Made by a program: the position numbers and the translations under genes | The notes under the pieces: generated by a model | The model's database searches: none | Seen by the model: only the letters and a program-made list of their open reading frames with translations | What the model was told of the DNA's origin: nothing | In this document: positions 27,819-59,088 of the stretch, in pieces | Numbering within the stretch: the first letter of the stretch is position 1 | How the letters are laid out: every line of letters starts with the position of its first letter | Origin: Vibrio sp. SCSIO 43135 | GTDB taxonomy: Bacteria; Pseudomonadota; Gammaproteobacteria; Enterobacterales; Vibrionaceae | DNA length: 64,000 nucleotides | Direction: 5' to 3' | Assembly: GCF_023716665.1 (NCBI RefSeq) | Contig: NZ_CP071860.1 | Span: 186,001-250,000 of the forward strand

Positions 27819-27854
27819 CTTTAGTTTGATATGTTATAACATATCAAACTAAAG
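27819..27854. promoter_or_regulatory. perfect 36-bp palindrome with Zur-box core
   Basis: CTTTAGTTTGATATGTTA (27819-27836) is followed directly by its exact complement (27837-27854). The centre GATATGTTATAACATATC fits a Zur box and shares 13 bp with the box in front of the Zur-type gene. It ends about 20 bp before the M23 endopeptidase start. Confidence 0.82.
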
Positions 27855-27874
27855 TGTCATCCAGTACTGTTCTC

Positions 27875-36900: not shown

Positions 36901-36935
36901 AATGCGCCGTGCAATCGCGCGGCGCATTTGTTTTA
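36901..36935. terminator. hairpin downstream of the dCache chemoreceptor
   Basis: AATGCGCCG (36901-36909) and CGGCGCATT (36920-36928) form a 9-bp stem. It lies 55 bp past the chemoreceptor stop on the minus strand and just upstream of the urea transporter. The T-rich tail is on the plus side, so its direction is uncertain. Confidence 0.5.
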
Positions 36936-42904: not shown

Positions 42905-42954
42905 CCTTTACTAGATATATGATAATCAAAATTCAAAATAACAGGTAATATATA

Positions 42955-43383: not shown

Positions 43384-43422
43384 AATGTAATTAGCAGTTG
43401 ATCGATATCGATATGAAGCCTC

Positions 43423-43449
43423 TTTATGGGCAGTTAGGGGGCCCATAAA
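43423..43449. repeat. hairpin after the small secreted protein
   Basis: TTTATGGGC (43423-43431) and GCCCATAAA (43441-43449) are exact complements with a 9-nt loop. There is no T-run, so it is only a possible transcript-end structure for the plus-strand genes. Confidence 0.4.
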
Positions 43450-43475
43450 TCTCGAAGTCGAGTAACAAGAAGCGA

Positions 43476-43503
43476 GAAGCCGCTGAATACATTCAGCGGC
43501 TTC
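43476..43503 (-). terminator. terminator of the tandem barrel operon
   Basis: GAAGCCGCTGAAT (43476-43488) and ATTCAGCGGCTTC (43491-43503) form a 13-bp perfect stem with a T-rich tail in the minus direction, 5 bp after the stop of the downstream barrel gene. Confidence 0.75.
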
Positions 43504-43507
43504 AAGG

Positions 43508-44185
43508 TTAATAGTGGTAATCTAAGCTGGTTACCCAAATGACTTCATTGTCATAGCTCACAGTACTTCCATATTCAGTTTCAAGCTCACCAGTATGAAT
43601 GTCGTAGCTAAGTTCAGTAGAGAGGCTCCAGTTATCGAACATGTAGTAAAGTCCGGTTTGTACGCCGTACGTAGGGCCAGAAAAGTCAGATTCCTCTCGG
43701 TCTGATAAATCTGAACCGACAATGCTTTCATAACCAAGCTTTCCTCCCGCGGTGAGGTAGAATGAAGAAGTAAGCGGTAACATATAGTCGTATTTAACGA
43801 TGAAGTTCATTGAGTCAATCGTATCGGTATGACTTTCTGGATCCCAATCCTCTAAGCTGGCTTCTTTATACTGGATTAATGTAGCTACTCTGTGTCGGCG
43901 GTTGACGATCGCCCCCCATTCTATACCGTAAGCTGCGTCATGATATTCGCTAGAGTAGCCATATGGATCAGTGTACTCCGAGCCGTCGGGATAGCTGCTA
44001 TTGATGCCGCCTTGTAATCTCTTCCCATATTCTAGGCCGATATAAAAGTCGAAATTTGGGTCATCTTTCGACGATGAACTTTGCATGTTCACTGATGAAT
44101 TGTTTTCGTACTCTGTTTGAGCATAACTACTAGATGTAACCGTAAGAAACGTCAGTAGGATGATTGTTGAGCTGAGGAAGTTCAT
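43508..44185 (-). CDS. outer-membrane beta-barrel protein, paralogue of the upstream gene
   Basis: A 225-residue exported protein with a signal peptide (about 1-22, ending SYA). The mature part is a small, probably eight-stranded barrel: FDFYIGLEYGKRLQGG first, then RHRVATLIQYKEASL, FIVKYDYMLPL, YLTAGGKLGYESI, GVQTGLYYMFDNWSLSTELSYD and VTSLDYHY at the end. Strand for strand it matches the neighbouring 276-residue protein, so the pair arose by duplication. It is the second gene of a two-gene operon (8-bp gap). The barrel family is OmpA/OmpW-like in size; its function is unknown. Confidence 0.8.
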   Translation of the reverse strand: MNFLSSTIILLTFLTVTSSSYAQTEYENNSSVNMQSSSSKDDPNFDFYIGLEYGKRLQGGINSSYPDGSEYTDPYGYSSEYHDAAYGIEWGAIVNRRHRVATLIQYKEASLEDWDPESHTDTIDSMNFIVKYDYMLPLTSSFYLTAGGKLGYESIVGSDLSDREESDFSGPTYGVQTGLYYMFDNWSLSTELSYDIHTGELETEYGSTVSYDNEVIWVTSLDYHY

Positions 44186-44193
44186 GTGGTCTC

Positions 44194-45024
44194 CTAGTAG
44201 TGGTATGAAAGAGAAGTGTTGAGCATGGTTTCACCACCAAAGGAAACACTCCCAGAGCCAGTCTTAAACTCTTTATGTTGTTGATAGGCTAACTCAGTGC
44301 CAATAGACCAATTGGTGAATTTGTAGTAGACGCCCGCTTGTGCTCCAACAAAGAAAGCTGACATGGGTAAGGTATCTTCGTTTTGCATTACGAATCGATA
44401 GCCAACCTTGGCACCTAGGCTAGTTGAGAAGTGGCCTTCGTTGTCCAGATTCCAAACGTAATCATACTTGGCTGCAAGGTCAGTTGCGTCGATGTTCTTC
44501 CTACTCCCGGAATAGCCGAACGTGTCCCATAAATCTTCTTGAGAGATTCTGAGGGTATGGAATGTCGCTTCAAGGCTTAATCGATGTGTATCTCTATATA
44601 GAGCGCCTACTTTTATCCCCGCGCCGCCGTCGGCATCGTAGACGAGATCTTGTGGATCACTTGAAGGTCCAAAGTGGAATTTTCCAGATAGACGTCGAGA
44701 ATGTATCAAGCCAATAAAGTACTCTGGAGATGAATCGAGTTCGCCACGCTCAGGTTCAGGTTGAGTGTCAGCTTTGTTGTTGAGCGACGCTTTAGCTTCC
44801 GCCTCTGCTTTTGCTCGAGCCTCTTCAGCTTCGACCTTGGCTTGAGCAGCTTTTTCAGCCGCCGCTTCTGCTTCGGCGATTGCTTCTTTTGCAGCGGCCT
44901 CTTTTGCTGCAGCCGTTTCCGCTGCACTTTCTATTTGCTGAGCGAATACTCCCATTGGGTAAGAAGATACAAGGATGCTTATTACCGCTAGTGCTAATCG
45001 ACACTGTCTCACGTGGCGCTTCAT
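44194..45024 (-). CDS. outer-membrane barrel protein with N-terminal EAAAK-type helix
   Basis: A 276-residue exported protein. After a signal peptide (about 1-28) comes an Ala/Glu/Lys-rich stretch (about residues 34-80) with near repeats AAAKEAAAKEAIAEAEAAAE, predicted as a long straight helix or coiled coil. An eight-strand-type barrel follows (EYFIGLIHSRRLSGKF first, TSLSYHY last). The helix could span the periplasm or reach peptidoglycan, as in TolA-like linkers. The downstream paralogue lacks this helix. A GGGAG ribosome site precedes the ATG. Function unknown. Confidence 0.8.
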   Translation of the reverse strand: MKRHVRQCRLALAVISILVSSYPMGVFAQQIESAAETAAAKEAAAKEAIAEAEAAAEKAAQAKVEAEEARAKAEAEAKASLNNKADTQPEPERGELDSSPEYFIGLIHSRRLSGKFHFGPSSDPQDLVYDADGGAGIKVGALYRDTHRLSLEATFHTLRISQEDLWDTFGYSGSRKNIDATDLAAKYDYVWNLDNEGHFSTSLGAKVGYRFVMQNEDTLPMSAFFVGAQAGVYYKFTNWSIGTELAYQQHKEFKTGSGSVSFGGETMLNTSLSYHY

Positions 45025-45584
45025 TTATACTCCCAGAGAATATATTGATAAAAATGTTAGGGGGAGTTTATTGAACGGTGTTCTCTATTCAAGGCAACAA
45101 AGTTAATTAAACTTTTGTCATTAGGCCCAACTCGATACAACTCGTTGTTATCTAGTTTGTTTTTCTAAAGTTCCTAGCTCGAAGCAGACTAGTAAAACTA
45201 ATGCTTTAAGGAGAGTACTACTTTGACTATTTAGAACTTTTTATATTTATTGTGTGAATATCATGCGATGCGAAAAGCGCTAGGAATGAGAGGATATTGG
45301 CGTAATGAATGGTTCACTCGCTGTAATCAAGATGCACAGTGCAGACACGTTGTTTATTCATGAGTGTATTGTATGGTGCCAAGTTTAGCGCATTAACTCA
45401 TTGATAAAAGGATGGAAAGACTTCGAGTGAGGCCCGCTTTCTGTACATCAATAGAGTGAGGTACTACCTCAAAGAATTGCAACAAATATAAACAATAAAA
45501 TATAACATCGGCCGACAATAGATCGCGCTTGTTTCTTTGCAGTAAAGTGTTTGGCAGGTTTTTGTTAAATAATTGGTAGTGCAT
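45025..45584. other. 560-bp intergenic region
   Basis: No gene is seen between the barrel operon and the EAL gene, which are divergent. It should hold both promoters. No strong palindrome or terminator was recognised. Confidence 0.5.
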
Positions 45585-46412
45585 ATGAGTATGGGAAGTT
45601 TACGCTTTTCTCGTAATCCAGCCGGGCAGCATCGGCTGCACGTTCCTGAGCATCGCGTTGTCTTAAAGAGTGCGTTTCAGGGCATTTTTGATGGCAAAAA
45701 TTCAATGATTGGAGTTGAAAGCCTGGTGAGAGTCTCCTGCGAAGATCAACGACTAGCGAGTTTGGATGAGGGATCCCAATTTGAATCTCATATTCCGACG
45801 GATGTGTTTCTTAGCCGTTTAGATGCTAATGAACGCTCATTGATAGAGCAATGGTTAGTTGTTCTGCACATCCTAAACTTCCACACGTTTGTCGCGAAAA
45901 AAAGTACAGACTGCAAGCTGTTCATCAACGTATCTCCTGATACCGCTCTCGACATTATGGAGTCACCAAACCAAATTAGTGTCTACCGGACATGTCTATC
46001 ACAGTTCAAGATTGATCTATCTCGGATCGTTTTTGAGCTCACAGAACAAGTATGCCGTGACGAAGAGCGTTTTCGCGAACTTGCGATGACTAAGTGGCTG
46101 CCTAAAGTTCACCGTGCGCTGGATGATGTTTGCTTAAGAGATATCGAGCTCGGCAGGATACTCAACTTAGAACCATCTATCATTAAACTAGATCGGTCCT
46201 TAACTAGGTTGGAAAGCACGGATACTTTGCTCGTGAAAAGTGTTCAAGCGTGGAGAAAGGAAGGAATTATTGTCGTCGCGGAGGGAATAGAAACGACGGA
46301 AGATTTCGAAAGAATGAAGAGTGTCGGTTGTCATTGGTTTCAAGGCTACTTATTAGGAAAGCCATACATATTCGGTGACAAGTGTAGAACCATCTTAAAG
46401 GTTGATAGTTGA
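45585..46412 (+). CDS. EAL-domain protein with altered loop 6
   Basis: A 275-residue single-domain EAL protein without membrane segments. Conserved positions seen are GVESLVRV (EAL position), LFINVSP, FELTEQ, ALDD, IIKLDRS, VVAEGIET and WFQGYLLGKP. The metal-binding acidic residues and catalytic Lys are kept, but the DDFGTG loop reads DDVCLRD, so loop 6, needed for dimer-coupled activity in many EAL enzymes, is changed. It may be a weak phosphodiesterase or a c-di-GMP effector. The frame opens at a TTG at 45573; ATGs at 45585 and 45591 are better. A ToxR-like gene follows 50 bp later. Confidence 0.85.
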   Translation: MSMGSLRFSRNPAGQHRLHVPEHRVVLKSAFQGIFDGKNSMIGVESLVRVSCEDQRLASLDEGSQFESHIPTDVFLSRLDANERSLIEQWLVVLHILNFHTFVAKKSTDCKLFINVSPDTALDIMESPNQISVYRTCLSQFKIDLSRIVFELTEQVCRDEERFRELAMTKWLPKVHRALDDVCLRDIELGRILNLEPSIIKLDRSLTRLESTDTLLVKSVQAWRKEGIIVVAEGIETTEDFERMKSVGCHWFQGYLLGKPYIFGDKCRTILKVDS

Positions 46413-46462
46413 ACTCTAAGGACGGATTCAAGAAGGAACAATACAACAGTGGATAATTTGAG

Positions 46463-47128
46463 ATGAAGAGCAGTGAAGCAAAGCAATTATTTGTGGAGCA
46501 CAATACCCTTTCCGACGGCGAGCATTTGATTAAGATGTCGAGCGCTGAGCGGAAAATTTTGATTCATTTTTATGAGCACCCGGGAAGTATATTTTCCCGA
46601 TTTGAGTTGCTTGAGGTAGGGTGGCCTGGCTCGGTAGTATCAGAGCGTTCTGTCAACATTGCGATAGGGAATATTCGCAACCTTCTACAAAAGTTTTCAC
46701 CAAGTAGTCAACTCGTGACAGTGCCGAAAGAGGGGTATAAATCGGACTTCAAATTTAGGCTCGCCTATGAAGGCGCTCCACAGAATAGCGTGGAACAGAT
46801 TGACGAGCCTAGTGAGGAAGCAATACCTAAGCCCCCATTATCTATAGCGGACCACTATCAACACATCAAAACATTTTACGGAACCTACTTTTCCCCTGTT
46901 GTGTGGTTGTTGCTTAGTGTATGGGTACTGGCTGGCTGGTTCCATATGTCACTGGGAGTAAGAACGTTGACTTGTGAGCCGGTGACTGCGGATCAACAGG
47001 TATGCGGGTTTGCTTCCGACGAATGGAAACAAGGAGATGCGGTACTCAGCCCAGATCAAGATGACAATATCATCTACTACGCTGTGAATTCATTTGGGGA
47101 GGTCACTTTTGAAGTTCTGGATAATTAA
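46463..47128 (+). CDS. ToxR-like membrane-bound winged-helix regulator
   Basis: A 221-residue transcription factor anchored in the inner membrane. Residues about 15-97 form an OmpR/ToxR-type winged helix (MSSAERKILIHFYEHPGSIF, WPGSVVSERSVNIAIGNIRN, then TVPKEGYKSDF). A linker leads to one membrane helix (about 144-164) and a short periplasmic domain (about 57 residues) with two cysteines (171 and 181), as in ToxR. The next gene overlaps by 20 bp and encodes a ToxS-like partner. This ToxR/ToxS, TcpP/TcpH or VtrA/VtrC type of pair senses envelope signals. Targets are unknown; the adjacent EAL gene and barrel operon are candidates. Confidence 0.87.
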   Translation: MKSSEAKQLFVEHNTLSDGEHLIKMSSAERKILIHFYEHPGSIFSRFELLEVGWPGSVVSERSVNIAIGNIRNLLQKFSPSSQLVTVPKEGYKSDFKFRLAYEGAPQNSVEQIDEPSEEAIPKPPLSIADHYQHIKTFYGTYFSPVVWLLLSVWVLAGWFHMSLGVRTLTCEPVTADQQVCGFASDEWKQGDAVLSPDQDDNIIYYAVNSFGEVTFEVLDN

Positions 47129-47534
47129 AATTTCAGTGCTAATCGCTGCACTACCTATCGTATTAGCTTTTTCTAACGGCGCATCGTGTGACTTCTACTA
47201 TCTGGGTGAGAATAAGACAACTGGTGTCAATGTGAGTTTTATCTGCGAACGTGGAAGGGCGGTGTTTAGTGTCGTGGATGCAGAAAAGACGGCAATTTAC
47301 CGAGTCGAAGGGCGTTACTACAGTCTGTACCCTGACTATTTCTTTCTGTATACCGATGAAGTTTATCTAGAAACACCAGATCTCGAACTAGAGAGCCGGT
47401 TGACGGTTATGGGAGAGTCTGAGTTAGTGAGAGGGTATTGGGCTGAAGGCGAAACAGAAAGCGTCTTACTTTTCTATTACCCTGAGCAATGGCTTACCAA
47501 AGGCCATTTAAGAGGGCAGCTCGGATTGTGGTAG
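47109..47534 (+). CDS. ToxS-like membrane-anchored periplasmic partner protein
   Basis: A roughly 141-residue protein with an N-terminal membrane anchor (about residues 4-22, KFWIIKISVLIAALPIVLAF) and a beta-rich periplasmic domain with two cysteines (27 and 46). It is not recognisable by sequence alone, but its position fits a ToxS/TcpH/VtrC-type co-component: it overlaps the end of the ToxR-like gene. A GGGAGGT ribosome site within the upstream gene fits the TTG at 47109 better than the TTG at 47094. It probably stabilises or gates the regulator's periplasmic domain. Confidence 0.75.
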   Translation: MKFWIIKISVLIAALPIVLAFSNGASCDFYYLGENKTTGVNVSFICERGRAVFSVVDAEKTAIYRVEGRYYSLYPDYFFLYTDEVYLETPDLELESRLTVMGESELVRGYWAEGETESVLLFYYPEQWLTKGHLRGQLGLW

Positions 47535-47584
47535 ATAACGGTTTGATTCAAACCATCTTAGTGTTGCTCAAGCTAGTTGGCATA

Positions 47585-47619
47585 AAACCTGTAGATTATT
47601 TAGCGTAATCTACAGGTTT
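47585..47619. terminator. terminator after the ToxRS-like pair
   Basis: AAACCTGTAGATTA (47585-47598) and TAATCTACAGGTTT (47606-47619) form a 14-bp perfect stem between converging genes. The A/T ends suit both directions. Confidence 0.75.
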
Positions 47620-47634
47620 CGAATTATCTAGATA

Positions 47635-48282
47635 TCAACTGAAGAAGACGTGGTCTGATTGCTCTGCGTGCATAAAACCATCAGTAGACAGTACGCGTGT
47701 TAGGTAAGCAGAGAATGCTGGGTAGAGTTGTTCATTAACGTGGAAACCTGCGTAACGAGCATTTAAAAACTGGCTGCCTATCGCGATATCCGCAATACTC
47801 CATTCACCACATAGGAAACCTTCTATAGGGCTATGGTTGTTGAGATACTGTAAAACAGCAGGCATTGCGACCTCTAGGTTTTCGTTTACTACTGAGTCGT
47901 CAGTTGGCTGATTAAACACCTTCGGTTTGATGACTTTTTCAAAGAACAGATTTTTCCCACATACTTCTAGCAATTTGGTATCAGCATACTCTTCAAACCA
48001 TAACGCTTTGGCAAACTGCACCGGATCGGTTGGGTACAGTGATTGTTGTTGAGCATAACGTTTGTCTAAGTATTGGCAGATTGCTGAAGAGTCAGCCAAT
48101 GAAACCAAATCATCTTTAATCGCGGGTATTTTGCCGAGTGGGCTTATTGATTGGAATTCTGGTGTTTTATTTACCGGGGAAACATCAGCTAGGCACTCAA
48201 ACTCCACACCGTAAAAATCTAACGCCATCGTGACTTTACGAACAAATGGTGATGCTGGTACACCGTATACTTTGGTAATCAT
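47635..48282 (-). CDS. glutathione S-transferase family protein
   Basis: A 215-residue cytosolic GST. The thioredoxin-like N-domain begins TKVYGVPASPFVRKVTMALD, with the SPFVRK active-site region, then PLGKIPAIKDD (cis-Pro) and LADSSAICQYLD, the glutathione-binding ESxxI-like motif. The helical C-domain contains EGFLCGEWSIADIAIGSQF. It could detoxify electrophiles or act as a reductase. AGAGAGGGA is well placed for the ATG at 48282, so the six-codon extension to 48300 is not used. A 446-bp gap follows upstream. Confidence 0.9.
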   Translation of the reverse strand: MITKVYGVPASPFVRKVTMALDFYGVEFECLADVSPVNKTPEFQSISPLGKIPAIKDDLVSLADSSAICQYLDKRYAQQQSLYPTDPVQFAKALWFEEYADTKLLEVCGKNLFFEKVIKPKVFNQPTDDSVVNENLEVAMPAVLQYLNNHSPIEGFLCGEWSIADIAIGSQFLNARYAGFHVNEQLYPAFSAYLTRVLSTDGFMHAEQSDHVFFS

Positions 48283-48728
48283 ATGATCCCTCTCTAACAT
48301 GTGACTTTACTTACTTATCGTTTTAAAACGTCAAGGTTAATAGCTCCGGCTAATAACAACGCGTAAATAAAAGGCAATAAAGGGCAGCCAAAGTAGATAC
48401 ACCTAACTGTGGTGTTGAAAGGGTTGGTTGAGGCTCAAGAGTGCCGTCTCTTATAGGTGGCTTAAACCGATGTAGAAAACAGAAGTAATAATATAACTAC
48501 CTGTTTATATTGATTTTAAATTTTATTTATTTTTATGTCCTCCTTTCCTAATGAGCACACAATATATGATGCGGTAGTTACTTTGGGAGTTATTCATCAG
48601 TCTCTGAATCGAGATTTGTCGAGCTTACTGCTGACTGGTTTGGAGCATCGTCAGACTATCGAAAATTGATTATGAAGTGCTCGTACCTAAGTACGCCTGA
48701 TAGTAAAACTCAATACTAGGATAGCAAT
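48283..48728. other. intergenic region between the GST and lipoprotein genes
   Basis: A divergent gap with no gene seen. It is AT-rich between 48481 and 48560. No terminator or strong palindrome was found. Confidence 0.45.
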
Positions 48729-50846
48729 ATGGCACTCAAACTTGGAATGACTCGCGTCACCTCGACATGGGTTTGTTTATCGAAACCCCTGAGGATTGTA
48801 GCGGTAATATTAACTTCATTGTTTCTATTTGCATGCAACAGCGGGGATACATCTTCTGTAGACCCTGTAGACCCTGTAGACCCTGTAGACCCTGTAGACC
48901 CTGTAGACCCTGTAGAGCCCACTTTAAGTCATCTATCCATAACTCAAATTAGCAAGCCCGAAACTGAGTCTAGATTTGAAAGCGGGGCGTTTAAACTCAA
49001 TACATTACCTATCAATAGAAATGACCAAGTTTGCTATGAGGTCACAGGCAATTACTCCGATGGCTCTACTAAGGATCTGACCTCAATTGCGAGTTGGCAG
49101 GTGGTAGGGCAATCTAATCTCGAGACCCACGGAAATTGTTTTACTGATATTGGTTACCAAGGAGTGACGACTGTATTGGCTTCAGTAGATGGCGTTAATG
49201 CAGATACATTCGACATTGAAACAGTGCAGGAACAACGTTTGTTGATCAATCAAGTGAGCACTAAGGGAGATTTACATGAGATTGAGTTGCCTCAAGGTTT
49301 ATATGCTCTTTTAGATTTTGATGTGGTGTGGAGTAATGGCGATGTTTTACACAAACTTGCTGCCGGTGATGTTACTGCAACCGTGAGTTCAAATAGCTTC
49401 CAATTGACATCTGAAAACCTGCGTCAAGAAAAGCTGAGAGCGATTGGCGAGAGTGGCGACATTGCCACCATCTCAATAGAATATGGCAGTACGAGCAGTA
49501 CTTTGGATGCTCGTATTACTGATGGGGTTTTACTTGGTGTGAGTATGACTGTAAGCCCACTTTACAACGATGAAAGTGTTGACTATATCCATCAAGGGCA
49601 ATTTAGAGAGCTTTCTACGATCGCAAGTTTTAAAGGAGACATTAGTGAAAATGGTCAAGGGGGAGAGACTTTTGACTTAGATGTCACGGATGATACTCAG
49701 TTTTCAGTCGACTGCGCGGATCTGATTATCGAAGGAAGAAGCATCAGAGCAATAGGCAGTCCACAGGGGGAAGAAAGTTGTGTCGTTACTGCTCAATATG
49801 ATGGTGATAGTGCGTCTTCACCGCTAAATGTGAGAATGGCAAACCTGAAAAAAGTGGAAGTACAAAGCGACCCAGACAGTGAGTCCGTTATTCAGTTTCA
49901 TTCAATGCAGTTTCATGCTTATGGGACCTTCTTCTACCAAGATGGCGATTTTGTTAAAGAGGAAATCACCAATGAAGTGGACTGGAGTAGTACAGGCTCA
50001 GCACTGACTGAAGACGGAGATATACCTGGCCTATTTGATGCGACAGGAAGCGCAGGGAGTCAGTCTACCGTGACCGCAACGGCGAGCTCTACCGATTTTG
50101 AATTTTTGAACCCAGAACAAACCAGCAAGGATGACTCAAAGGATATTGGGGTTGAAAAAGGAGAGTTACTGTCGATCCATATCGCTATGGATAACCACCA
50201 CAATTTGCCTTTGGATGTCCCGCGGGATCAATATCGGTATTTTGTCGCAACCGGACACTATAGCGATGGCAAGGGAGGCGATGTACAACAAGACATCACT
50301 GATCTTGTTACGTGGGATAATACCAATCCTAATGCGTTTGAGCGCTACGAGAACAAATACACGGCCATCGAAGGGACTAACCAACAGACTGATGTATCTG
50401 CTGAGTTCGAACAAGTAACTAGCGACAATACCATCACATTAACAACGACTCCGCCTTCATTAGCGCAAGTTGAGCACTTTCATCGACCGGTAGTCTGTCA
50501 CAACTCGGAGCATTGTTACCATGATGAACGGGTGCCATGGACAGAATGGGCGCTAAAAACTTGGAGTGAAGCGAATAGCATTTGCCAAAACCGGGGACAA
50601 AGGCTGCCACATTCAGGACAGGAGTTAAATTCATTAACGTATCCATATGCCAATATCAGTTTAGCCTATGGGTGGCCTTACTATCACATGCACTACTGGA
50701 CGGTGGATGAATCAGAATCTGGTCACTACTCACAGTATATAGATGGTAACCCTTACGATGTTGAAGATTGGGTTCACTTGGCGGTTATCTGTGTTGATGA
50801 TCCGTTTAACCGAAGTGATAACGAGGATAAACGCTATATATTCTAA
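48729..50846 (+). CDS. large surface lipoprotein with VDP repeat linker and C-type-lectin-like end
   Basis: A 705-residue lipoprotein: N-terminal signal with lipobox LFAC (cysteine about residue 36), then a Val-Asp-Pro tripeptide repeat (six VDP and one VEP) that should form a stiff stalk. Several beta-rich Ig-like (Big-type) segments follow (for example VCYEVTGNYSDGSTKDLTSI and YFVATGHYSDGKGGDVQQDI). The last ~110 residues have four cysteines and the pattern WSEANSICQNRGQRLP, YWTVDE and LAVICVDD, resembling the C-type-lectin-like domain ending intimin/invasin-type adhesins. An adhesin or surface-binding role is likely but inferred. A terminator follows. Confidence 0.82.
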   Translation: MALKLGMTRVTSTWVCLSKPLRIVAVILTSLFLFACNSGDTSSVDPVDPVDPVDPVDPVDPVEPTLSHLSITQISKPETESRFESGAFKLNTLPINRNDQVCYEVTGNYSDGSTKDLTSIASWQVVGQSNLETHGNCFTDIGYQGVTTVLASVDGVNADTFDIETVQEQRLLINQVSTKGDLHEIELPQGLYALLDFDVVWSNGDVLHKLAAGDVTATVSSNSFQLTSENLRQEKLRAIGESGDIATISIEYGSTSSTLDARITDGVLLGVSMTVSPLYNDESVDYIHQGQFRELSTIASFKGDISENGQGGETFDLDVTDDTQFSVDCADLIIEGRSIRAIGSPQGEESCVVTAQYDGDSASSPLNVRMANLKKVEVQSDPDSESVIQFHSMQFHAYGTFFYQDGDFVKEEITNEVDWSSTGSALTEDGDIPGLFDATGSAGSQSTVTATASSTDFEFLNPEQTSKDDSKDIGVEKGELLSIHIAMDNHHNLPLDVPRDQYRYFVATGHYSDGKGGDVQQDITDLVTWDNTNPNAFERYENKYTAIEGTNQQTDVSAEFEQVTSDNTITLTTTPPSLAQVEHFHRPVVCHNSEHCYHDERVPWTEWALKTWSEANSICQNRGQRLPHSGQELNSLTYPYANISLAYGWPYYHMHYWTVDESESGHYSQYIDGNPYDVEDWVHLAVICVDDPFNRSDNEDKRYIF
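48858..48920 (+). repeat. 9-bp coding tandem repeat (GTAGACCCT)n
   Basis: Six perfect copies of GTAGACCCT and one variant (GTAGAGCCC) encode the VDP stalk. Because the unit is three codons, slippage would change stalk length without a frameshift. Confidence 0.95.
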
Positions 50847-50898
50847 CCTGTTGCTCTAATGCTTCTTATAGATCGCTAGACGTCGCTAACTTCTTATT

Positions 50899-50939
50899 CT
50901 CGCTCATTAGATGTTTAAGCCCCTTATGAGCGAGTTTTT
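50899..50939 (+). terminator. terminator after the lipoprotein gene
   Basis: CTCGCTCAT (50899-50907) pairs with ATGAGCGAG (50926-50934), followed by TTTTTG. Confidence 0.78.
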
Positions 50940-51231
50940 GTTTAAGGGTAGTAAACGAAGTTAAAGTATATTTCGCGTTGTTAGCGAAGCACATGGCATC
51001 TGTTTTGAAAAAGCACTGCATCAAATGTGGACTGATAGCATTTCATGACTGTAGAACGGTGAGTTTTGAGGCGGCTAGAATTATCGATACAGAAATAACT
51101 GGCGTGACAATAATAAAAGGGTGAATCGATTCACTATTTGGTTTAAGTATTTTGTGGCGATGTTGTTAGAAAGGAAGAAATGTAGGCCCGAGAACTAAAT
51201 GTAGGTGGATGTTCTGAGCCTACGAGAGGAT
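50940..51231. other. intergenic region with perfect 14-bp palindrome
   Basis: No convincing gene. It contains GTGAATCGATTCAC (51121-51134), a perfect palindrome not obviously linked to a promoter, since the genes on both sides end here. Confidence 0.5.
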
Positions 51232-51651
51232 TTAGTGGCAATTGATGTTCCAAGTGATACCAAAGTGGTCTTGCACAATGCCATATTGTTGAGCCCAAAA
51301 GGTCTTCTGTATTGGCATGATAACGTCACCTTTCGCAGAAAAGCTTTGGAATATGTTGATGGCTTCTTGAGGTTGTTCAACCGATACCACGAGAGTGATG
51401 TTATCGCTTGGCTGCCCTTTTTGTTCAGGAAAGCCGTCGGAGCCCATTAAGGTGAAACCCTGACACTTCATTTCGATATGCAATAATTTATCCTGCCAGT
51501 TGGCTCTGCTATCTACTTGATCTTGCATAGGTGATTGCTTGAAGTAGTGTTTATCTTTAATTGTTCCGTTTAGTACGTGCGCATAAAAGTTAAATGCTTC
51601 TTCACATTGACCTGGAATCCTAAGGTAAGGACATAATGTGTGGATGTTCAT
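51232..51651 (-). CDS. VOC family protein (PhnB/glyoxalase-like)
   Basis: A 139-residue protein of the vicinal-oxygen-chelate fold, PhnB/3-demethylubiquinone-methyltransferase-like group. Characteristic stretches are YLRIPGQCEEAFNFYAHVLNG, LLHIEMKCQGFTLMGSDG, NITLVVSVEQPQEAINIFQS and WAQQYGIVQDHFGITWNIN. These small metal-binding enzymes or binding proteins act in detoxification; the substrate is unknown. It lies 8 bp after an SRPBCC-family gene on the same strand, a pairing common in bacteria. Confidence 0.9.
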   Translation of the reverse strand: MNIHTLCPYLRIPGQCEEAFNFYAHVLNGTIKDKHYFKQSPMQDQVDSRANWQDKLLHIEMKCQGFTLMGSDGFPEQKGQPSDNITLVVSVEQPQEAINIFQSFSAKGDVIMPIQKTFWAQQYGIVQDHFGITWNINCH

Positions 51652-51659
51652 GTGACTCC

Positions 51660-52112
51660 TTAATAGTGATTGATCTGAATGTCATTTGGGTAAGGTCGTC
51701 CAACCCCAGATTCGACCGCTTCTTTTAGGCTCAAGAGAAACACTGCCCATTTGGTTGAAACAGCAGAGAAGCTCGAACCAGCCTTATCCCAGCCTTGATG
51801 GATAAAATTCACTATCGTCTGAGATTTTTCTTTTGAAAGAGAGAAATTAATCCAAGTGTTGGCCCAGTTACCAGTCTCGACCTCATCACCATCGATAACG
51901 ATCGGCTGCCAGGTAATACTGTCTGGCCCATTGCTGTATACCTCCATGTGGTACATGTGCTCTTGAATGTATAAAACGACATAGGTAGACCCTGCACTGT
52001 CAACAAGTTTGCAATCGGTCCACCAAGCTTTAATACCGTGCTCAGTCGTTAAATACTCATGAATTTTGTCTATGGGCGCCTTAATACCCACTTGATGATA
52101 AATTTCAGCCAT
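51660..52112 (-). CDS. SRPBCC/AHSA1-like protein
   Basis: A 150-residue START-like (SRPBCC) protein. The opening IYHQVGIKAPIDKIHEYLTT, then GIKAWWTDCKLVD, and the C-terminal WAVFLLSLKEAVESGVGRPY are typical of AHSA1/YndB-type domains, which bind hydrophobic ligands in a deep cavity. It is the first gene of a two-gene operon with the VOC protein. The AGGAAAA ribosome site is good. Ligand and role are unknown. Confidence 0.88.
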   Translation of the reverse strand: MAEIYHQVGIKAPIDKIHEYLTTEHGIKAWWTDCKLVDSAGSTYVVLYIQEHMYHMEVYSNGPDSITWQPIVIDGDEVETGNWANTWINFSLSKEKSQTIVNFIHQGWDKAGSSFSAVSTKWAVFLLSLKEAVESGVGRPYPNDIQINHY

Positions 52113-52168
52113 TTTTATTTTCCTATTTGATATGACGTTGTTATTGAATATTTTTAGTCGTAAGCCTT

Positions 52169-52319
52169 AAAAAAATATCCCACTCCCCAAGCAGATACCG
52201 CCGAGGAACTTGGGGGTGGGATTAGCCGTCTGCACTAGGTATTGGACGCAGACAAATAACGAAACGAGACCAGATTCATCGTCCCTGTAATAAGTGCGGT
52301 AAACCGCCTCTCTCTGGTC
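52169..52319 (-). ncRNA. candidate orphan small RNA
   Basis: A self-contained transcription unit of about 150 nt is suggested on the minus strand, with no ORF. Reading leftward: a -10-like CATAAT (52325-52330), then stem A (ACGAGACCAGA 52264-52274 with TCTGGTCTCGT 52313-52323) enclosing a GCGG/CCGC hairpin. Stem B follows (GTCTGC 52228-52233 with GCAGAC 52248-52253). A strong terminator stem comes last (CCCAC-CCCCAAG at 52179-52191 with CTTGGGGGTGGG at 52209-52220) and is followed by a seven-U run (52169-52175). No gene to its right could use that terminator. I do not recognise the family. Confidence 0.55.
52177..52222 (-). terminator. strong Rho-independent terminator of the candidate small RNA
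   Basis: A 14-bp stem with one bulged base, GC-rich, followed in the minus direction by ATATTTTTTT. Confidence 0.8.
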
Positions 52320-52330
52320 TCGTTATTATG

Positions 52331-52771
52331 AAACCAGTTAAATTACATTGATGCAAATAGGTCATGTTTTATGATTGTGTTTTAATGGGATGTTTTATGT
52401 GTAATTGTAAGTGCCTTGTTTCTATTTTTTATTTAAGTTGTTGTTTTGTAATAATTTAATGTTTTATTAACTTTGTTTTAATACTAAGTGTGATTTTTAG
52501 TTATTTATAGATTTAAACATCAAAATTAAATCTCATTAACTGCGTCGGTTTACGGTTTTATTATAGATGATTATTATATGTGCATTATTCTTACATTCAT
52601 TGATTTTAGCGATTTGTATGAAGGTATTTTTTGGGAGGGATTTGACTTTTATACTAGGTTACTAGTCCAGTTCTTGTATTGTTATTGTATTTGTTAATTA
52701 TTATTTTGTTTCATTACGGCTATATTTGTACTCCCATATGCTCCCTTTTATTTTGGAGATGTATAATACCC
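52331..52771. other. very AT-rich intergenic region
   Basis: About 440 bp of extremely AT-rich DNA between the candidate small RNA and the next secreted-protein gene. No gene or strong repeat is seen. A TATAAT at 52762-52767 lies too close to the next start to be its obvious -10. Confidence 0.45.
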
Positions 52772-53182
52772 ATGCTTGTTTTATTAATCGCTTTAATCTC
52801 ATTGTTGCCCAAGTTTGCTTCTGCAGAAATCATTGATATAGATGGTTGGCACATAATGGCAGAAGGTCCGTATGACCTGTGTAATAACGATGATGAGGGT
52901 TTTCCTTTAGGAGCCAAAGAAACATGCCTTCCGATCTATAATGCGACAGGGCATTCGTTATCGGTCTACTTAGCGGGTGGAACGCCTTACGACTACTATA
53001 GAAACTATCTAAACGGTTGGACGACGGCATTTATTGCTGGGAACGTGACTGAAGATATCGAGTATGTCGATGCCTTCGTTACCGATAATGTCACGGAAGA
53101 GGTGATTTATTATGGCCATATATCGAACAAAGTAGGCCTGACGTGCGATAGTAATGGCTGCTATGAAGGGATTGATTATTAG
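52772..53182 (+). CDS. small secreted cysteine-containing protein of unknown function
   Basis: I do not recognise this 136-residue protein. It has a signal peptide (LVLLIALISLLPKFASA, about residues 2-18) and a beta-rich mature part with four cysteines, probably two disulfides (DLCNN, KETCLPI, GLTCDSNGCYEG). The open frame extends to 52679, but the upstream part is only hydrophobic and AT-rich, and the ATG at 52772 begins a normal signal peptide. The ribosome site is poor, so the start is uncertain. A terminator hairpin follows. Confidence 0.65.
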   Translation: MLVLLIALISLLPKFASAEIIDIDGWHIMAEGPYDLCNNDDEGFPLGAKETCLPIYNATGHSLSVYLAGGTPYDYYRNYLNGWTTAFIAGNVTEDIEYVDAFVTDNVTEEVIYYGHISNKVGLTCDSNGCYEGIDY

Positions 53183-53263
53183 AGCGAGCCTTTCTATACG
53201 AGGACTCAAGATGATTTCATTCACCTTGTGCCATTAGGTTATTTATCCCCTTGTAGATTACTA

Positions 53264-53293
53264 AGCCACTTCTCAGTTAGAAGTGGCTGTTTA
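53264..53293. terminator. terminator between convergent genes
   Basis: AGCCACTTCT (53264-53273) and AGAAGTGGCT (53279-53288) form a 10-bp perfect stem followed by GTTTA. Confidence 0.65.
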
Positions 53294-53325
53294 TTGGGAC
53301 TTTCTAAGGTTTAGTGTGTACAGCG

Positions 53326-54243
53326 CTAGTCTTCAATCGGGTAGGAGTTTAATAGATTGCTGGTTCCATCGTTATCGCTGCTACCGAGCAACAGGGTTGA
53401 GGAGAGAGCTGTAAGCCCTTCCATTTTATTGCCTTCCGTCGTGATAATTTGCTCACTCACTACCGTAGGAGGTAAGTTAGTAATTTGTGATTCGTCAGTC
53501 AGGTCAATATCAAGTTGATAAAGCACCGATCTGAATGAGGCTGGATCTCCGTCGTCGAAGGTAGCGAAACCATAAATTTTGCCATTCAGTGAATGCAACT
53601 CTGAAATAGGTCGGTTTATGCTTCCATTTAGTGAGCTAGTATCTACTGTCGTTACCTGATGAAAAGGCGCCAGTACCCCGTAGTCGAATTGTTCTTTGAG
53701 TATCTTGCTTAGCCAAAGTTGGCCGCTGTTCCTATCGCCAATCATGATGTTGTAACTCTCGCCAACGATCGACTCTTCACATGCAATCCCTTCGAAATTG
53801 AGCCCGTCCTGAGTTGGAAGATCAATGGCAGCTTTAATAGTAATAGTTTGCTGCTGATTGGCCGGCGTGTAATCGAGTACCAGCAGCCGGCCATAGTTAC
53901 CCTGATAATAGCTACTTTCCAGAGCCACATAATGGTTGTCACTCAGTCGACAAATGCCTTCGAGATCGTTAGCAGGTAGCTGGTTGCCATAGTCTACTTT
54001 ACTGTTATCGATGTCATTGACCATGAGTTGCCCTTCACCATTGTTGACGATCACACTGAATCGCGGAGGTTCTGTGTCGGGGTCGTTGCCAAGGGTGTGC
54101 TTCTCATCGTATACCGCGAAATACTCAGTACTGGAAATCGTTTCGAGGCCGCTGAAAGCCTGCGTAATTGGAACCGAATCTGCTGCGAGAGCAGGAAACG
54201 TGATGTAGCTAGCAATTGCCAAGCAAGAAGTAAGTTTGTACAT
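53326..54243 (-). CDS. secreted phytase-esterase-like beta-propeller protein
   Basis: A 305-residue exported protein with a signal peptide (about 1-20, ending ALA). The mature part resembles the SdiA-regulated / phytase esterase-like beta-propeller group. The repeated DLEGI-type motifs are seen as NDLEGICRLSDNHYVALESS, LNFEGIACEE and KMEGLTALSSTLLLGSSDND. Such propellers bind calcium and may hydrolyse phosphate esters or simply bind ligands; activity here is not established. The TAGGAGTC ribosome site is good. It is monocistronic. Confidence 0.78.
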   Translation of the reverse strand: MYKLTSCLAIASYITFPALAADSVPITQAFSGLETISSTEYFAVYDEKHTLGNDPDTEPPRFSVIVNNGEGQLMVNDIDNSKVDYGNQLPANDLEGICRLSDNHYVALESSYYQGNYGRLLVLDYTPANQQQTITIKAAIDLPTQDGLNFEGIACEESIVGESYNIMIGDRNSGQLWLSKILKEQFDYGVLAPFHQVTTVDTSSLNGSINRPISELHSLNGKIYGFATFDDGDPASFRSVLYQLDIDLTDESQITNLPPTVVSEQIITTEGNKMEGLTALSSTLLLGSSDNDGTSNLLNSYPIED

Positions 54244-54493
54244 GATGACTCCTAATCATTTCGGGAGTTGTTTGTTTAGTACTATTTTTTTTACCCCTCA
54301 AGTTGGAAAGTAAAGGAGTGAGGGATCGTGTTGAATATTTGTAATTAGTCCATGAAACCGTTATTTATCGGGTTTTTATTTTACTTGTTTTTTGTAGGAT
54401 ATTTAATTGATTAGGTATTGGATATAGATAGTCGCCGAAAATTAATGCTTCTCAACGAAGTTGGGTTTTTAATTTATAAACAAGGTAATAAAT

Positions 54494-54871
54494 ATGAAAA
54501 AAATACTATCCTCTCTATGTCTGATTTCTTTAGCTAGCCTGCCTGTCTATGCAGCAATATCTAAAGAAGAAGCGCAATTGAAACTGGACCAAATGGAAAT
54601 CAAAGAATATCCACGTTCTGATGTAACTCTTAATATTGTCAATAACAGTACCACTGAAGCATATGTGGAAATGATTGGTCCAGATTATTATGAAGTTAGA
54701 ACTGTTGGCCCTGGAGCATCGGCGTATGTGAGCTTTGCTGTAGGGACTTACCTTAATACTGTGAGGGGGGTTGATGGTGGAAATGGTTACGCTTACTGCC
54801 CACCGGTGACACTGGATACGTCTAAAACAGCGTTCATGAATTTGCAATCACACTCTTGTTATTACCAGTAA
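54494..54871 (+). CDS. small secreted protein of unknown function
   Basis: A 125-residue protein I do not recognise, with a signal peptide (about residues 1-20, ending VYA) and a beta-rich mature domain (LNIVNNSTTEAYVEMIGPDY, then RTVGPGASAYVSFAVGTYLN) with two late cysteines (YCPP and HSCYY), probably one disulfide. The pattern suggests a small beta-sandwich. A CAAGGTAATAA ribosome site precedes the ATG. A larger secreted-protein gene begins 127 bp later on the same strand. Confidence 0.7.
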   Translation: MKKILSSLCLISLASLPVYAAISKEEAQLKLDQMEIKEYPRSDVTLNIVNNSTTEAYVEMIGPDYYEVRTVGPGASAYVSFAVGTYLNTVRGVDGGNGYAYCPPVTLDTSKTAFMNLQSHSCYYQ

Positions 54872-54998
54872 ATAGAGCTCTAAGGCTCGTTTCTTTTTAA
54901 AACTGAAAGCCAGCTTATTCATATGTAATTTATTTATATTTATTGCCGATGTGGATTAGCTAGTAGTGGTAACAAAAAATATTAATGAGAGTTCAATA

Positions 54999-56579
54999 AT
55001 GATGATTAAAAATACACGTACAGCAGTGGTTCTTAGTATTACTTTTTTTAGTGGTGTATCGATAGCAGCAGAACGTTGTGATGTATATTCAGGGAGCGAT
55101 AGACTGCAATGTGAATCGATAGCTCAGACCTGTAAAAATAATCCACACTCTGAAAAATGTGTCGAGCAATCCAGAGAGTTTTTGGATCGCAATAGTGGTT
55201 TAGTCACTGTGATGCCCAACGAATCACCGGATCAGTTCCAATGCAATGGCTTTTCTTACTTGGTTCAAGGAAATGGAAATAGTGACTTGATTCGTTTCAA
55301 CCCTTATGGGGATGAAAGCGAATTTGTTTCGCTATGGCAAGGAAATCCGTACCCGAACGAATTGCAGGCAATCGGTCATAGAGATGCCGATGGGTATCTC
55401 TATGGATGGGATAAAAATCAAAAGAAAGCGGTGAGGATTAGAAACCTCGATAGTGGCAGTGCTGCCGTTGAGATCATTGACTCTTTGCTACCAGACCCAG
55501 ACTTTAATACGGTCTCTGGCGACGTATACAACGACTCACTTTATTTGTTTAACGACCAAATCTCGTACAAGTTGGATCTTGAGTCGTTAACTTGGACTCC
55601 TTTACTAGGGGCAACCGGTAACTTTGCACCGGATATGGCGTTCATGCCAAGTAAGTCTTCCGGAAACGTGGCAGCGGCTTACGGTTTGAATGAAGCTGGA
55701 CAAGTGGTTAAGTTCACCGAAACTAGTGGCTCGGCAAGTTTTGAAGTGGTAGGTAATGCGCCATTTTTTAACTCAGAAAGTAACCACAGCTGGGGAGGCG
55801 CTTACGCTGAAGCTGATTCCAGCTACCTCTACGTAAGCAATAACAATGGTTCAGTGTACAAAGTTAACGTTGATAACCTAAACGACTACGAAAAAGTGGG
55901 TGATACCAATACCCCGGTGTCTAACAATGACGGAGCGCACTGTACGACGGCTAGGGTGGGGAGCTTCCACCTGTACTACCTGAATAACACCGACTCAGGC
56001 CAGTCCGCCGGAGATTTAGTCGAAGATGGTTCAGGTGCTTGGGCCAGCATCGGTACTACCCCTATGAACTTCTCAACGGAGTTTACCGAGAGCTCAGCTG
56101 AGATGATCAATAACGATGTCACTCCGGGTAGTACTCGTGCAGTTGGTTTTAATTATGCTGGAGAAAACGTAGATTGTGGCGATGTGATTTTCCGAGGTCC
56201 GGTAATTGCTGAGTTAACAGAGTCTGACTCTAAGGCTGGTGTGAGAACTTGTACCATTCACTATGAGGATACCTATATTTCCATCACCAACTCTACAGGG
56301 CAATATTTCTATCCTGCTTTCGATTCTGTTCAAACTACGGATTGGTTTGCTGACTCTTTCTACGGTTGGCTAAATCCTAGTACAACACGTTTGTACTGGG
56401 GTGATGATGAGTTCCTTACCAATCCTGCCATTGATATCAAGCCTGGCGATGTCATTGAGAAAATCGGCTACACCGATGGAATTAGCTACTACGAGTGTGA
56501 TTCTGACGTTGTTTATGAGGGGCAGTTGCGATATGACATCGTAAATGGTGAAAGTGGCTTAACCTGCATTAAACGTTAA
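54999..56579 (+). CDS. secreted beta-propeller-like protein (DUF6923-like)
   Basis: A 526-residue exported protein. After a signal peptide (cut near IAA) comes a Cys-rich segment (RCDVYSGSDRLQC, QTCKNNPHSEKC). A long beta-repeat region of propeller type follows (YLVQGNGNSDLIRFNPYGDE, then GHRDADGYLYGWDKNQKKAV and SDVYNDSLYLFND-like blades). A C-terminal Cys-containing beta domain ends in LTCIKR. The propeller part resembles DUF6923 domains that follow surface proteins. The frame opens at 54966; GAGAG upstream supports the ATG at 54999. Function unknown. A perfect terminator stem follows directly. Confidence 0.75.
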   Translation: MMIKNTRTAVVLSITFFSGVSIAAERCDVYSGSDRLQCESIAQTCKNNPHSEKCVEQSREFLDRNSGLVTVMPNESPDQFQCNGFSYLVQGNGNSDLIRFNPYGDESEFVSLWQGNPYPNELQAIGHRDADGYLYGWDKNQKKAVRIRNLDSGSAAVEIIDSLLPDPDFNTVSGDVYNDSLYLFNDQISYKLDLESLTWTPLLGATGNFAPDMAFMPSKSSGNVAAAYGLNEAGQVVKFTETSGSASFEVVGNAPFFNSESNHSWGGAYAEADSSYLYVSNNNGSVYKVNVDNLNDYEKVGDTNTPVSNNDGAHCTTARVGSFHLYYLNNTDSGQSAGDLVEDGSGAWASIGTTPMNFSTEFTESSAEMINNDVTPGSTRAVGFNYAGENVDCGDVIFRGPVIAELTESDSKAGVRTCTIHYEDTYISITNSTGQYFYPAFDSVQTTDWFADSFYGWLNPSTTRLYWGDDEFLTNPAIDIKPGDVIEKIGYTDGISYYECDSDVVYEGQLRYDIVNGESGLTCIKR

Positions 56580-56587
56580 CAAACTGA

Positions 56588-56620
56588 CCATGGCTGTTAG
56601 TCACTAACAGCCATGGTTTT
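56588..56620. terminator. perfect 13-bp terminator overlapping the next gene's end
   Basis: CCATGGCTGTTAG (56588-56600) and CTAACAGCCATGG (56604-56616) with a 3-nt loop, then TTTT. It serves the plus-strand secreted-protein gene and also contains the stop region of the minus-strand gene. Confidence 0.85.
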
Positions 56621-56899
56621 ATGTTGCAGGATAGGACTGAAGACTTCGCCTTTTGCTTTAAGTACGGCATCGTCGATGGTTCTCAATAGAAACATAAGCT
56701 CCATTTTGGCGTTTATAGGAAGTAACGGCACTTTCGCTGGATTGAATCCGTGCTCCAATTCATACTTAGCAGGCTTTCGCATCGAGTTAGCCGAAAGCGT
56801 TTCCAAAGAAATATAGCCGTGCTTTAGCACAGATTGAATACACTTGCGGCGCACAGCTCTGCGTTCCCTATGCTCCTTAGGTATATAACCACGGCTCAT
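56597..56899 (-). CDS. 100-residue protein of unknown function
   Basis: I do not recognise this protein. It is basic and helical at the start (YIPKEHRERRAVRRKCIQSV) with no signal peptide or membrane helix, then a segment KVPLLPINAKMELMFLLRTI and a helical end. Its ATG overlaps the stop of a 44-residue membrane peptide gene (ATGA), so the two are translationally coupled. The 3-prime end runs into a terminator hairpin. Coupling and the clean start favour a real gene. Confidence 0.6.
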   Translation of the reverse strand: MSRGYIPKEHRERRAVRRKCIQSVLKHGYISLETLSANSMRKPAKYELEHGFNPAKVPLLPINAKMELMFLLRTIDDAVLKAKGEVFSPILQHKTMAVSD

Positions 56900-57030
56900 A
56901 GATCAAACTCCGAAACAATACTGGTTAGGTATTCAAGCGGATCTAATCCCTCCATCTGCAAAATAAGCCACAGTGCGGAATTTAGGATAAAAAGCACGGC
57001 TGCGCACAGCCTAAAACAATGAACCCACAT
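56896..57030 (-). CDS. 44-residue small membrane protein, coupled to the next gene
   Basis: A short ORF starting MWVHCFRLCAAVLFILNSA. A GGAG ribosome site is 8 nt before its ATG. One hydrophobic helix (about residues 6-25) is followed by an acidic tail (MEGLDPLEYLTSIVSEFDL). Its TGA stop overlaps the ATG of the 100-residue gene as ATGA, a classic coupling arrangement. No family is recognised. Being very short, it rests on the ribosome site, helix and overlap. Confidence 0.5.
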   Translation of the reverse strand: MWVHCFRLCAAVLFILNSALWLILQMEGLDPLEYLTSIVSEFDL

Positions 57031-57444
57031 ATGGGTGTCTCCATAATGTTTTCGTATTGATCAGTAACTTGTTACTGAGTAGAGAGCCAAACGTTGTTAG
57101 TGAATATCTGAGCTATTGAGCCGTCTTCACGATGTATAGGAATAATGTTGTGAACAGCGGCAATGCTTAACCAGTAGTGGTGGATTCAAAAGGCAATAAA
57201 AAAAATAAATTTTCTATAACGGCGTCGAGCGCTGTGGTAGTGGTAGGTCTAAGGCTTTGAGGGTAATTTTTTGGCTTGTAGTTAATGCTCTGAGCTTGGA
57301 TAGGTGTGTGAAGTCTTGATTGGTTTTCACTATCAAATGAATAGGTTTAAACGGTTTTATCTATCTGATGGGGTTGCATAAACTACAACCATCAAAGAGA
57401 GAAAAGCTCTTAATCAAATTAACCCTGTTCCAAGGAGTGTCGGT
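57031..57444. other. AT-rich region upstream of dps
   Basis: A divergent gap of 414 bp with no gene seen. It contains an imperfect inverted repeat around 57366-57392 (GTTG and CAAC arms) close to dps that could be a regulatory site. Confidence 0.4.
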
Positions 57445-57921
57445 ATGACTAATCAAACAAATTTAATTGGCCTAGATAACGAAAAAGCACAAGATCTTGC
57501 TGGTGAACTGAACCACTTATTAGCGCTATACCAAGTTCTGTATATGAACACACGCGGTTATCACTGGAATATTAAAGGTCAGCAGTTTTTCGAATTACAC
57601 GTCAAATTTGAAGAGATTTACACCGATCTACAAACCAAGATCGACGAACTTGCAGAACGAATTCTCACACTAGGCTTTACGCCAGACCACAGCTTTAGCC
57701 GCTACCTAGAAGCAAGTGAAATTCGCGAGCACCTAAATGCAACTTCGGGTGTGGAATGTGTGCAAGGTTTGGTGAGTGGATTTAGCGTATTACTTAAGAA
57801 AGAGCGCCAACTACTTGAACAAGCGGGTGAAGCCGATGATGAAGGTACGGCTGCATTAATGGGTGACTACATTGGTGAGCAAGAAAAATTGATGTGGATG
57901 CTGAACGCTTACCTTCAGTAA
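57445..57921 (+). CDS. dps: Dps-family DNA-binding ferritin
   Basis: A 158-residue Dps mini-ferritin: a twelve-subunit cage that oxidises iron with peroxide and protects DNA in stress. The ferroxidase ligands are in TRGYHWNIKGQQFFELHVKF (His in YHWN) and KFEEIYTDLQTKIDELAERI (Asp/Glu). The N-terminus (TNQTNLIGLDNEKAQDLAGE) is short and only weakly basic, so DNA binding may be modest. A GGAGTG ribosome site precedes the ATG. It is monocistronic with a strong terminator. Confidence 0.93.
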   Translation: MTNQTNLIGLDNEKAQDLAGELNHLLALYQVLYMNTRGYHWNIKGQQFFELHVKFEEIYTDLQTKIDELAERILTLGFTPDHSFSRYLEASEIREHLNATSGVECVQGLVSGFSVLLKKERQLLEQAGEADDEGTAALMGDYIGEQEKLMWMLNAYLQ

Positions 57922-58002: not shown

Positions 58003-59001
58003 TTAGTCGTTGATGAGTTCATTTCCCGACTTTTGACCTGCAAAGAAAGCATCAATGCTGTTTAGTGTGGTTGTAGCGATGTTGTGCAGTGCTTCATTAG
58101 TTAAAAACGCTTGGTGGCCGGTAAACAGCACGTTGTGGCATGCCGACAGCCTACGGAATACGTCGTCAACGATGATGTCATTCGATTTGTCTTGGAAGAA
58201 CAGATCTTTTTCGTTGTCGTAAACATCAAGGCCAAGAGCACCAATTTTTCCTTTTTTTAGCGCTTCAATCGCCGCCGCAGAATCAAGCAACTTGCCGCGG
58301 CTGGTATTAATGATCATCACGCCGTCTTTCATCTTATCGAACGCTTGTTCATTAAGTAGGTGCTTATTTTCTGCTGTTAATGGGCAGTGCAGAGAAATAA
58401 TGTCGGATTGAGCAAACAGCTCATCGATCGAGCAGTATTTAGCACCCAGTTCGATGGCCAATGGGTTTTCATACGGGTCAAAACACAGGATGTTCATGCC
58501 TAGACCTTTGAAAATGCGCATCGCGGCCATGCCAATTTTTCCTGAGCCCACGACACCGACAGTTTTACCAAAGAAGTTGAATCCAACCAGTCCATCTAAA
58601 GAAAAGTTAGCATCACGGGTACGTTGGTAGGCTTTATGTAATCGGCGGTTTAAACACATCATCATGCCAACGGCGTGCTCTGCGACCGCCTCAGGTGAAT
58701 AAGCGGGTACTCGAACTACCTGTAATCCAAGCGCTTTAGCTGCTTCAAGGTCAACCTTATCGAAGCCTGCGCAGCGCATGGCAATTAGCTTAACGCCGAC
58801 GTCAGCAAGGATTTCTAAGACTGGGCGAGAAAGGTTGTCGTTTACAAACGCACAAACAACTTGGCTACCTGCGGCCATTTGAGCTGTTTTTGCATTGAGA
58901 CGGAAGTCATGGAAATGACACTCAATATTGGGATTTTGGTTGGCATTGTCAAATGACGTTTCGTCGTAATTCTTGGTGCTGAAAAAAGCTATGTTGAGCA
59001 T
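58003..59001 (-). CDS. ldhA: D-lactate dehydrogenase (2-hydroxyacid dehydrogenase)
   Basis: A 332-residue fermentative D-lactate dehydrogenase that reduces pyruvate with NADH. The N-terminus LNIAFFSTKNYDETSFDNAN matches LdhA. The Rossmann motif is GVVGSGKIGMAAMRIFKGLG; INTSRGKLLDSAAAIEAL, GLDVYDNEKDLFFQDKS and TGHQAFLTNEAL supply the catalytic Arg, Glu and His regions. The frame extends to 59055, but GTGAGG is spaced for the ATG at 59001. Upstream, an 11-bp-arm inverted repeat (59089-59134) may be regulatory. Confidence 0.92.
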   Translation of the reverse strand: MLNIAFFSTKNYDETSFDNANQNPNIECHFHDFRLNAKTAQMAAGSQVVCAFVNDNLSRPVLEILADVGVKLIAMRCAGFDKVDLEAAKALGLQVVRVPAYSPEAVAEHAVGMMMCLNRRLHKAYQRTRDANFSLDGLVGFNFFGKTVGVVGSGKIGMAAMRIFKGLGMNILCFDPYENPLAIELGAKYCSIDELFAQSDIISLHCPLTAENKHLLNEQAFDKMKDGVMIINTSRGKLLDSAAAIEALKKGKIGALGLDVYDNEKDLFFQDKSNDIIVDDVFRRLSACHNVLFTGHQAFLTNEALHNIATTTLNSIDAFFAGQKSGNELIND

Positions 59002-59088
59002 GTGAGACCTCACTCTTTGTTGAGATTTAGTTTTTCCTACTGTGACATGTCTCACGGTTTAATTTCAAGCGTGTAAGCGTCTGACAAG

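Follow-up and report, generated by a model that had tools for sequence, protein, structure and literature searches.

A Candidate Structured Small RNA with a Strong Intrinsic Terminator in an Accessory-Like Region of Vibrio sp. SCSIO 43135

Introduction

Stand-alone bacterial small RNAs (sRNAs) of the Hfq type are typically intergenic, about 150 nt long and built of several stems, with an intrinsic terminator and a U tail at the end. A second kind is derived from leaders: UpsM, in the dcw cluster of Rhodobacter sphaeroides, is described as an sRNA that arises by termination inside a 5' UTR (PMC5089854). The RNAs that bind the regulator CsrA are different again; the consensus reported for CsrA is RUACARGGAUGU, and CsrB/C/D of Vibrio cholerae are described as carrying 23-28 GGA motifs, of which 11 lie in loops (PMC6550530).

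We analyzed a window of 64,000 nt of Vibrio sp. SCSIO 43135 (contig NZ_CP071860.1, 186,001 to 250,000), whose own numbering is used throughout. A preliminary description of this window had proposed a stand-alone structured sRNA of about 150 nt on the minus strand, and the locus is compared here with the systems above.

Terminator and Fold of the Element

An intrinsic terminator hairpin of 15 pairs, with one bulge and a 15-nt loop, lies at 52222-52177 (minus strand), and a single A separates it from a run of seven U at 52175-52169, the predicted 3' end of the RNA. Candidate terminators were defined as hairpins at -12 kcal/mol or better in front of at least six T in eight positions, with large loops allowed. 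At -25.2 kcal/mol, this hairpin ranked first among all candidates listed on both strands of the window, in agreement with the preliminary description, which had called the left-facing terminator very strong. A standard terminator scan did not return 52222-52177, presumably since only loops of 3-8 nt are allowed there. Thirteen candidates reached -17 kcal/mol or better, six inside listed ORFs and seven outside, and for five of those seven, a same-strand stop codon is found 38-60 nt upstream. Upstream of the present hairpin, there is no such codon for 1149 nt (ORF 53326-54243), and the earlier statement that no gene lies to its right on that strand therefore holds among the ORFs counted; a candidate at 36927 (plus strand) is the second exception, with none for 999 nt. 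These distances refer to an ORF list compiled by hand, from which minus-strand ORFs of 65, 66 and 71 aa (52720-53224), which overlap a plus-strand ORF (52679-53182), were left out. The plus-strand candidate at 36927, a strong GC-rich hairpin with a T run (36902-36927), is situated between two minus-strand genes.

Reading of the sequence and folding gave three predicted stems on the minus strand at 52329-52169, with the terminator hairpin as the last. Stem 1 (52329-52256) contains 12 perfect pairs (52324-52313/52274-52263) with a 38-nt gap, and across a 2-nt bulge five extra pairs extend it to 52329/52256. It encloses an inner hairpin (52310-52292) and a 17-nt stretch, AUUACAGGGACGAUGAA (52291-52275), that is mostly unpaired (probability 0.64-0.99). 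Stem 2 (52255-52226) is formed, according to both the fold and the pairing probabilities, by nine pairs (52255-52247/52234-52226) around a 12-nt loop. Both of the further inverted repeats that had been noted beside the terminator are thus present. Perfect 12-bp inverted repeats with gaps of 3-60 nt occur at eight places in the window (19 overlapping 12-mers), compared with a mean of 0.25 12-mer inverted repeats in 20 Markov windows, and the stem 1 repeat is the only one of the eight with a gap longer than 12 nt.

On the minus strand, the 161-nt stretch had a folding energy of -61.7 kcal/mol; its shuffles averaged -43.4, and none of 200 did as well (z -4.95). Folding of the plus strand was good too (-56.9 kcal/mol, z -4.32), because palindromes fold well on both strands, and this strand has no T run behind any stem; it is the minus strand that combines the T run with the better energy. 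When 12,770 stretches of 160 nt were compared (both strands, 10-nt steps, neighbors within 100 nt collapsed), the element took second place by energy and seventh place after linear G+C correction, with six other places in the window folding better. Given these six places and the well-folding plus strand, fold alone is not decisive: that of the element is among the best in the window, and it is not unique. Elsewhere, the stretch 27771-27930 showed a better G+C-corrected fold than the element, and 29881-30040 a better one in both corrected and raw energy; the palindrome in the former has 16-bp arms (27819-27834/27839-27854) that reach the listed start of ORF 27854.

The G+C content of the element is 49%, that of the 56 nt to its left 25% and that of the 440 nt to its right 26%. 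A functional RNA gene would be expected to stand out in this way, as a structured island rich in G+C within an A+T-rich gap, and an imported piece could do so too. The simplest reading of the terminator, the fold and the G+C block is a structured RNA, presumably transcribed from the minus strand, that ends at 52169.

Candidate Promoter and Predicted Start of Transcription

The promoter originally proposed was a CATAAT box at 52330-52325 (minus strand), with the first repeat beginning almost at the predicted start of transcription. CATAAT matches five of six -10 positions; its best -35 partner reaches 2/6, and the best sum with any -35 hexamer at a distance of 15-19 nt is 7/12. This promoter is weak and sits inside an arm of stem 1, and the relation of repeat and start had to be revised as well: stem 1 begins upstream of the predicted start, which would cut it. 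A promoter scan of 50000-55000 returned no minus-strand site; it found six sites on the plus strand and no others, compared with 13.3 in shuffles. Looser minus-strand matches farther upstream, in A+T-rich sequence, scored 8/12 at most and would place the start near 52367, 52397 or 52417.

Predicted folding depended on where the RNA was made to begin. Starts from 52329 to 52324 kept the stem 1 domain at -25.9 to -25.0 kcal/mol, starts at 52320 or 52319 left eight or seven stem 1 pairs (-17.1 and -16.6 kcal/mol), and with a start at 52318, the best fold was without stem 1 (-15.3 kcal/mol). The extension of the perfect repeat through bases that would otherwise be untranscribed suggests that the true RNA start lies at or before 52329.

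The Exposed Stretch of Stem 1

Stretch 52291-52275 could function as a seed for pairing or as a ribosome- or CsrA-type site. AGGG and AUG both fall within this mostly unpaired loop and open a 14-codon small ORF, MNLVSFRYLSASNT (52279-52235, minus strand), so that the RNA might be a messenger made for the translation of a small protein. However, 12.5% of 2000 dinucleotide shuffles contained an ORF as good, which is not above chance, the spacing between AGGG and AUG is short, and the searches gave no relative that would show conserved codons. We regard a small-protein messenger as the least probable of the readings weighed here, and very unlikely.

By our own comparison, the exposed UUACAGGGACGA agrees with the reported CsrA consensus (PMC6550530) at 9 of 12 positions, and the core ACARGGA occurred in 2.15% of 2000 shuffles. 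A CsrA-sequestering sponge requires several GGA motifs in loops. In contrast to the 23-28 GGA described for V. cholerae CsrB/C/D (PMC6550530), the element, counted on the sequence with its predicted pairing, has three, of which one lies in a loop; the other two lie in the terminator stem, which makes a sponge unlikely, and this candidate was rejected. Integron attC and retron layouts were dropped after comparison by eye with known motifs.

Downstream Gene Pair and Possible Leader Function

The start of a co-directional gene, at 52112, lies 56 nt downstream of the terminator's U run. It is an SRPBCC/AHSA1-like gene (51660-52112, minus strand) for a protein of 150 aa, whose score of 20.9 bits falls short of the Pfam cut-off, 22.1. 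Eight nt after it lies a gene of the VOC / 3-dmu-9_3-mt family (51232-51651, minus strand), whose protein matched NCBIfam YjdN at 65.8 bits, below the cut-off of 122. Within the 56 nt, promoter matches that would start before the ATG scored 7/12 at most (starts at about 52140 and 52167), and one 8/12 match corresponds to a start at 52110, within the SRPBCC-like gene. Because of the short distance and the low-scoring spacer promoters, a leader with premature termination must be weighed.

The element would then be the 5' leader of the gene pair: transcription would start upstream of stem 1 and usually stop at the terminator, leaving a leader-derived sRNA, with conditional read-through into both genes. 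The common strand, the position of the terminator just before the start codon and the poor spacer promoters are consistent with this possibility, for which UpsM, as described in PMC5089854, is a precedent. In addition, setting aside one match attributed to chance, the searches at the thresholds used gave no counterpart of the element or of either gene within the genus, and all three could have arrived together. As in an attenuator, a terminator stands directly in front of a co-directional gene, but a competing antiterminator pairing was not found: when upstream sequence was paired with the terminator's 5' arm, with its 3' arm or with the 5' half, 62%, 69% and 72%, respectively, of 300 mononucleotide shuffles did as well. 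The small ORF, being at chance level, and the lack of any Rfam riboswitch or leader match likewise argue against a leader. We tentatively rank a leader-derived sRNA second, after a lineage-specific sRNA gene. A species-specific conditional leader that does without a classical antiterminator, in which a ribosome or CsrA at the exposed AGGGACGAUG site decides on read-through into an acquired SRPBCC-VOC pair and the terminated product acts as an sRNA, seems highly improbable.

Of the structured sRNA layout of about 150 nt first proposed, the terminator and the stems were borne out; stand-alone status is less certain, as the co-directional gene pair 56 nt downstream has no clear promoter of its own.

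Search for Relatives

The Rfam covariance search that had been recommended for this locus gave no match at the gathering cut-off anywhere in the window. At E up to 5, two matches far below their cut-offs appeared: KCNQ1OT1_1 on the plus strand scored 14.3 bits against a cut-off of 70 (E 0.0094), and sR23 scored 11.3 bits against 45 (E 2.8). A known Rfam RNA family, riboswitch or leader was rejected.

BLAST with the element gave matches in 2 of 227 genus genomes, its own and G052; the latter match, 30 bases at 90% (E 8.1e-4) inside a 244-aa ORF, was set aside as chance. Among 394 genomes of the order, genus genomes included, only its own genome was found. With a covariance model built from the element's single sequence, run under stricter Infernal filters, which lose weak matches, hits at E up to 1 were obtained in 4 of 226 genus genomes, its own included; the other three, gapped or partial alignments of 18-20 bits, were judged to be noise. 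A search of GTDB r220 contigs, a collection from which the genome itself was possibly left out, for the stem 1 arm pattern (10 exact bases on each side) matched one contig of Planctomycetaceae and one of Actinophytocola; these have the arms alone in common with the element, nothing else of note, and were rejected as relatives.

Searched as DNA, 51100-53400 matched 11 of 61 genomes, including its own. The matches in other genomes comprised ten rows at 52415-52480, which is A+T-rich, and one in the SRPBCC gene (G335, 71% over 86 bases). The SRPBCC and VOC proteins were each found in 1 of 226 genus genomes, their own, at strict thresholds (E 1e-20 and 1e-25) that leave room for remote relatives. 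At E up to 1e-5, the SRPBCC protein was found in 5 of 247 family genomes, including its own; the other four proteins are 32-36% identical to it, one from the same genus and three from the same family. The single-sequence covariance model matched none of these four loci, and a related-locus search with the SRPBCC protein confirmed no relative.

Genomic Surroundings

For the gene at 58003-59055, the nearest counterpart among 226 genus genomes is in G196, with 77% DNA and 90% protein identity. In about 38 kb around this gene in G196, G143 and G192, tblastn (E up to 1e-8) found no match to 14 proteins from 42191-57921, and blastn (E up to 1) none to 52110-52780. Given the 77% identity in this gene and the absence of such matches around it, the missing relatives may partly reflect sparse sampling near this species. 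The stretch 42191-57921 looks like an accessory one, and the SRPBCC-VOC gene pair was possibly acquired. A Pfam scan of seven proteins (48729-56579) left three without a family and two with matches below the cut-off only. By eye, the 705-aa ORF at 48729-50846 resembles a lipoprotein; it has a DPV tripeptide repeat close to the N-terminus, and its match to the adhesion domain InvE_AD scored 26.7 bits, below the cut-off of 32.

The element might also be a relic, its repeats left behind by a mobile piece or by a gene since lost, or a DNA-level element such as a cruciform or a protein-binding site, with the terminator merely insulating the gene pair. Stem 1 runs through the proposed -10 box and part of it may be untranscribed, and the surrounding genes have no counterpart beside the 58003-59055 gene in the three relatives, as would suit such a piece. 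However, the element is present in a single copy in its own genome (E up to 0.001), phages and plasmids gave no match to it, and no viral contig contained any of the three exact patterns; the seven neighboring proteins include no transposase family, the window has no tRNA, and only the minus strand has a T run after the hairpins. We consider a relic or DNA-level element unlikely.

Proposed Function and Comparison with Known Systems

We give about even chances to a young, lineage-specific sRNA gene of the ordinary kind on the minus strand. The element is intergenic and has its own intrinsic terminator, with no preceding gene on its strand. The rank of that hairpin, the z score of the fold, the U7 end, the unusual 38-nt gap of stem 1, the G+C block and the exposed unpaired stretch argue for this reading. 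The absence of a minus-strand promoter-like site in the scan of 50000-55000, the co-directional gene at 56 nt and the indecisive fold argue against it, as does the lack of a relative in the collections searched, and hence of covariation. In the sRNA reading, RNA polymerase would start somewhere at or before 52329, at a position not fixed, and would be stopped at the terminator after about 160 nt or slightly more, releasing a three-stem RNA with a U7 tail. If it resembles other sRNAs of this build, Hfq may hold the tail, and messenger RNAs may pair in trans with the exposed stretch of 17 nt.

If real, the element would be one more young sRNA of an accessory region, or one more leader-derived sRNA, and a test case for the origin of such genes without relatives; the general picture would be unchanged. 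With UpsM (PMC5089854), the element would share the short leader RNA that a terminator before a co-directional gene produces; the UpsM of that report belongs to another taxon and a 268-nt 5' UTR, whereas for the element, with no mapped start, leader status is only possible. From lineage-restricted sRNAs of the Hfq type, it differs in having no sequence relative even in the genus sample, and it resembles them in its intergenic position, its length of about 150 nt and its predicted stems and terminator with U tail.
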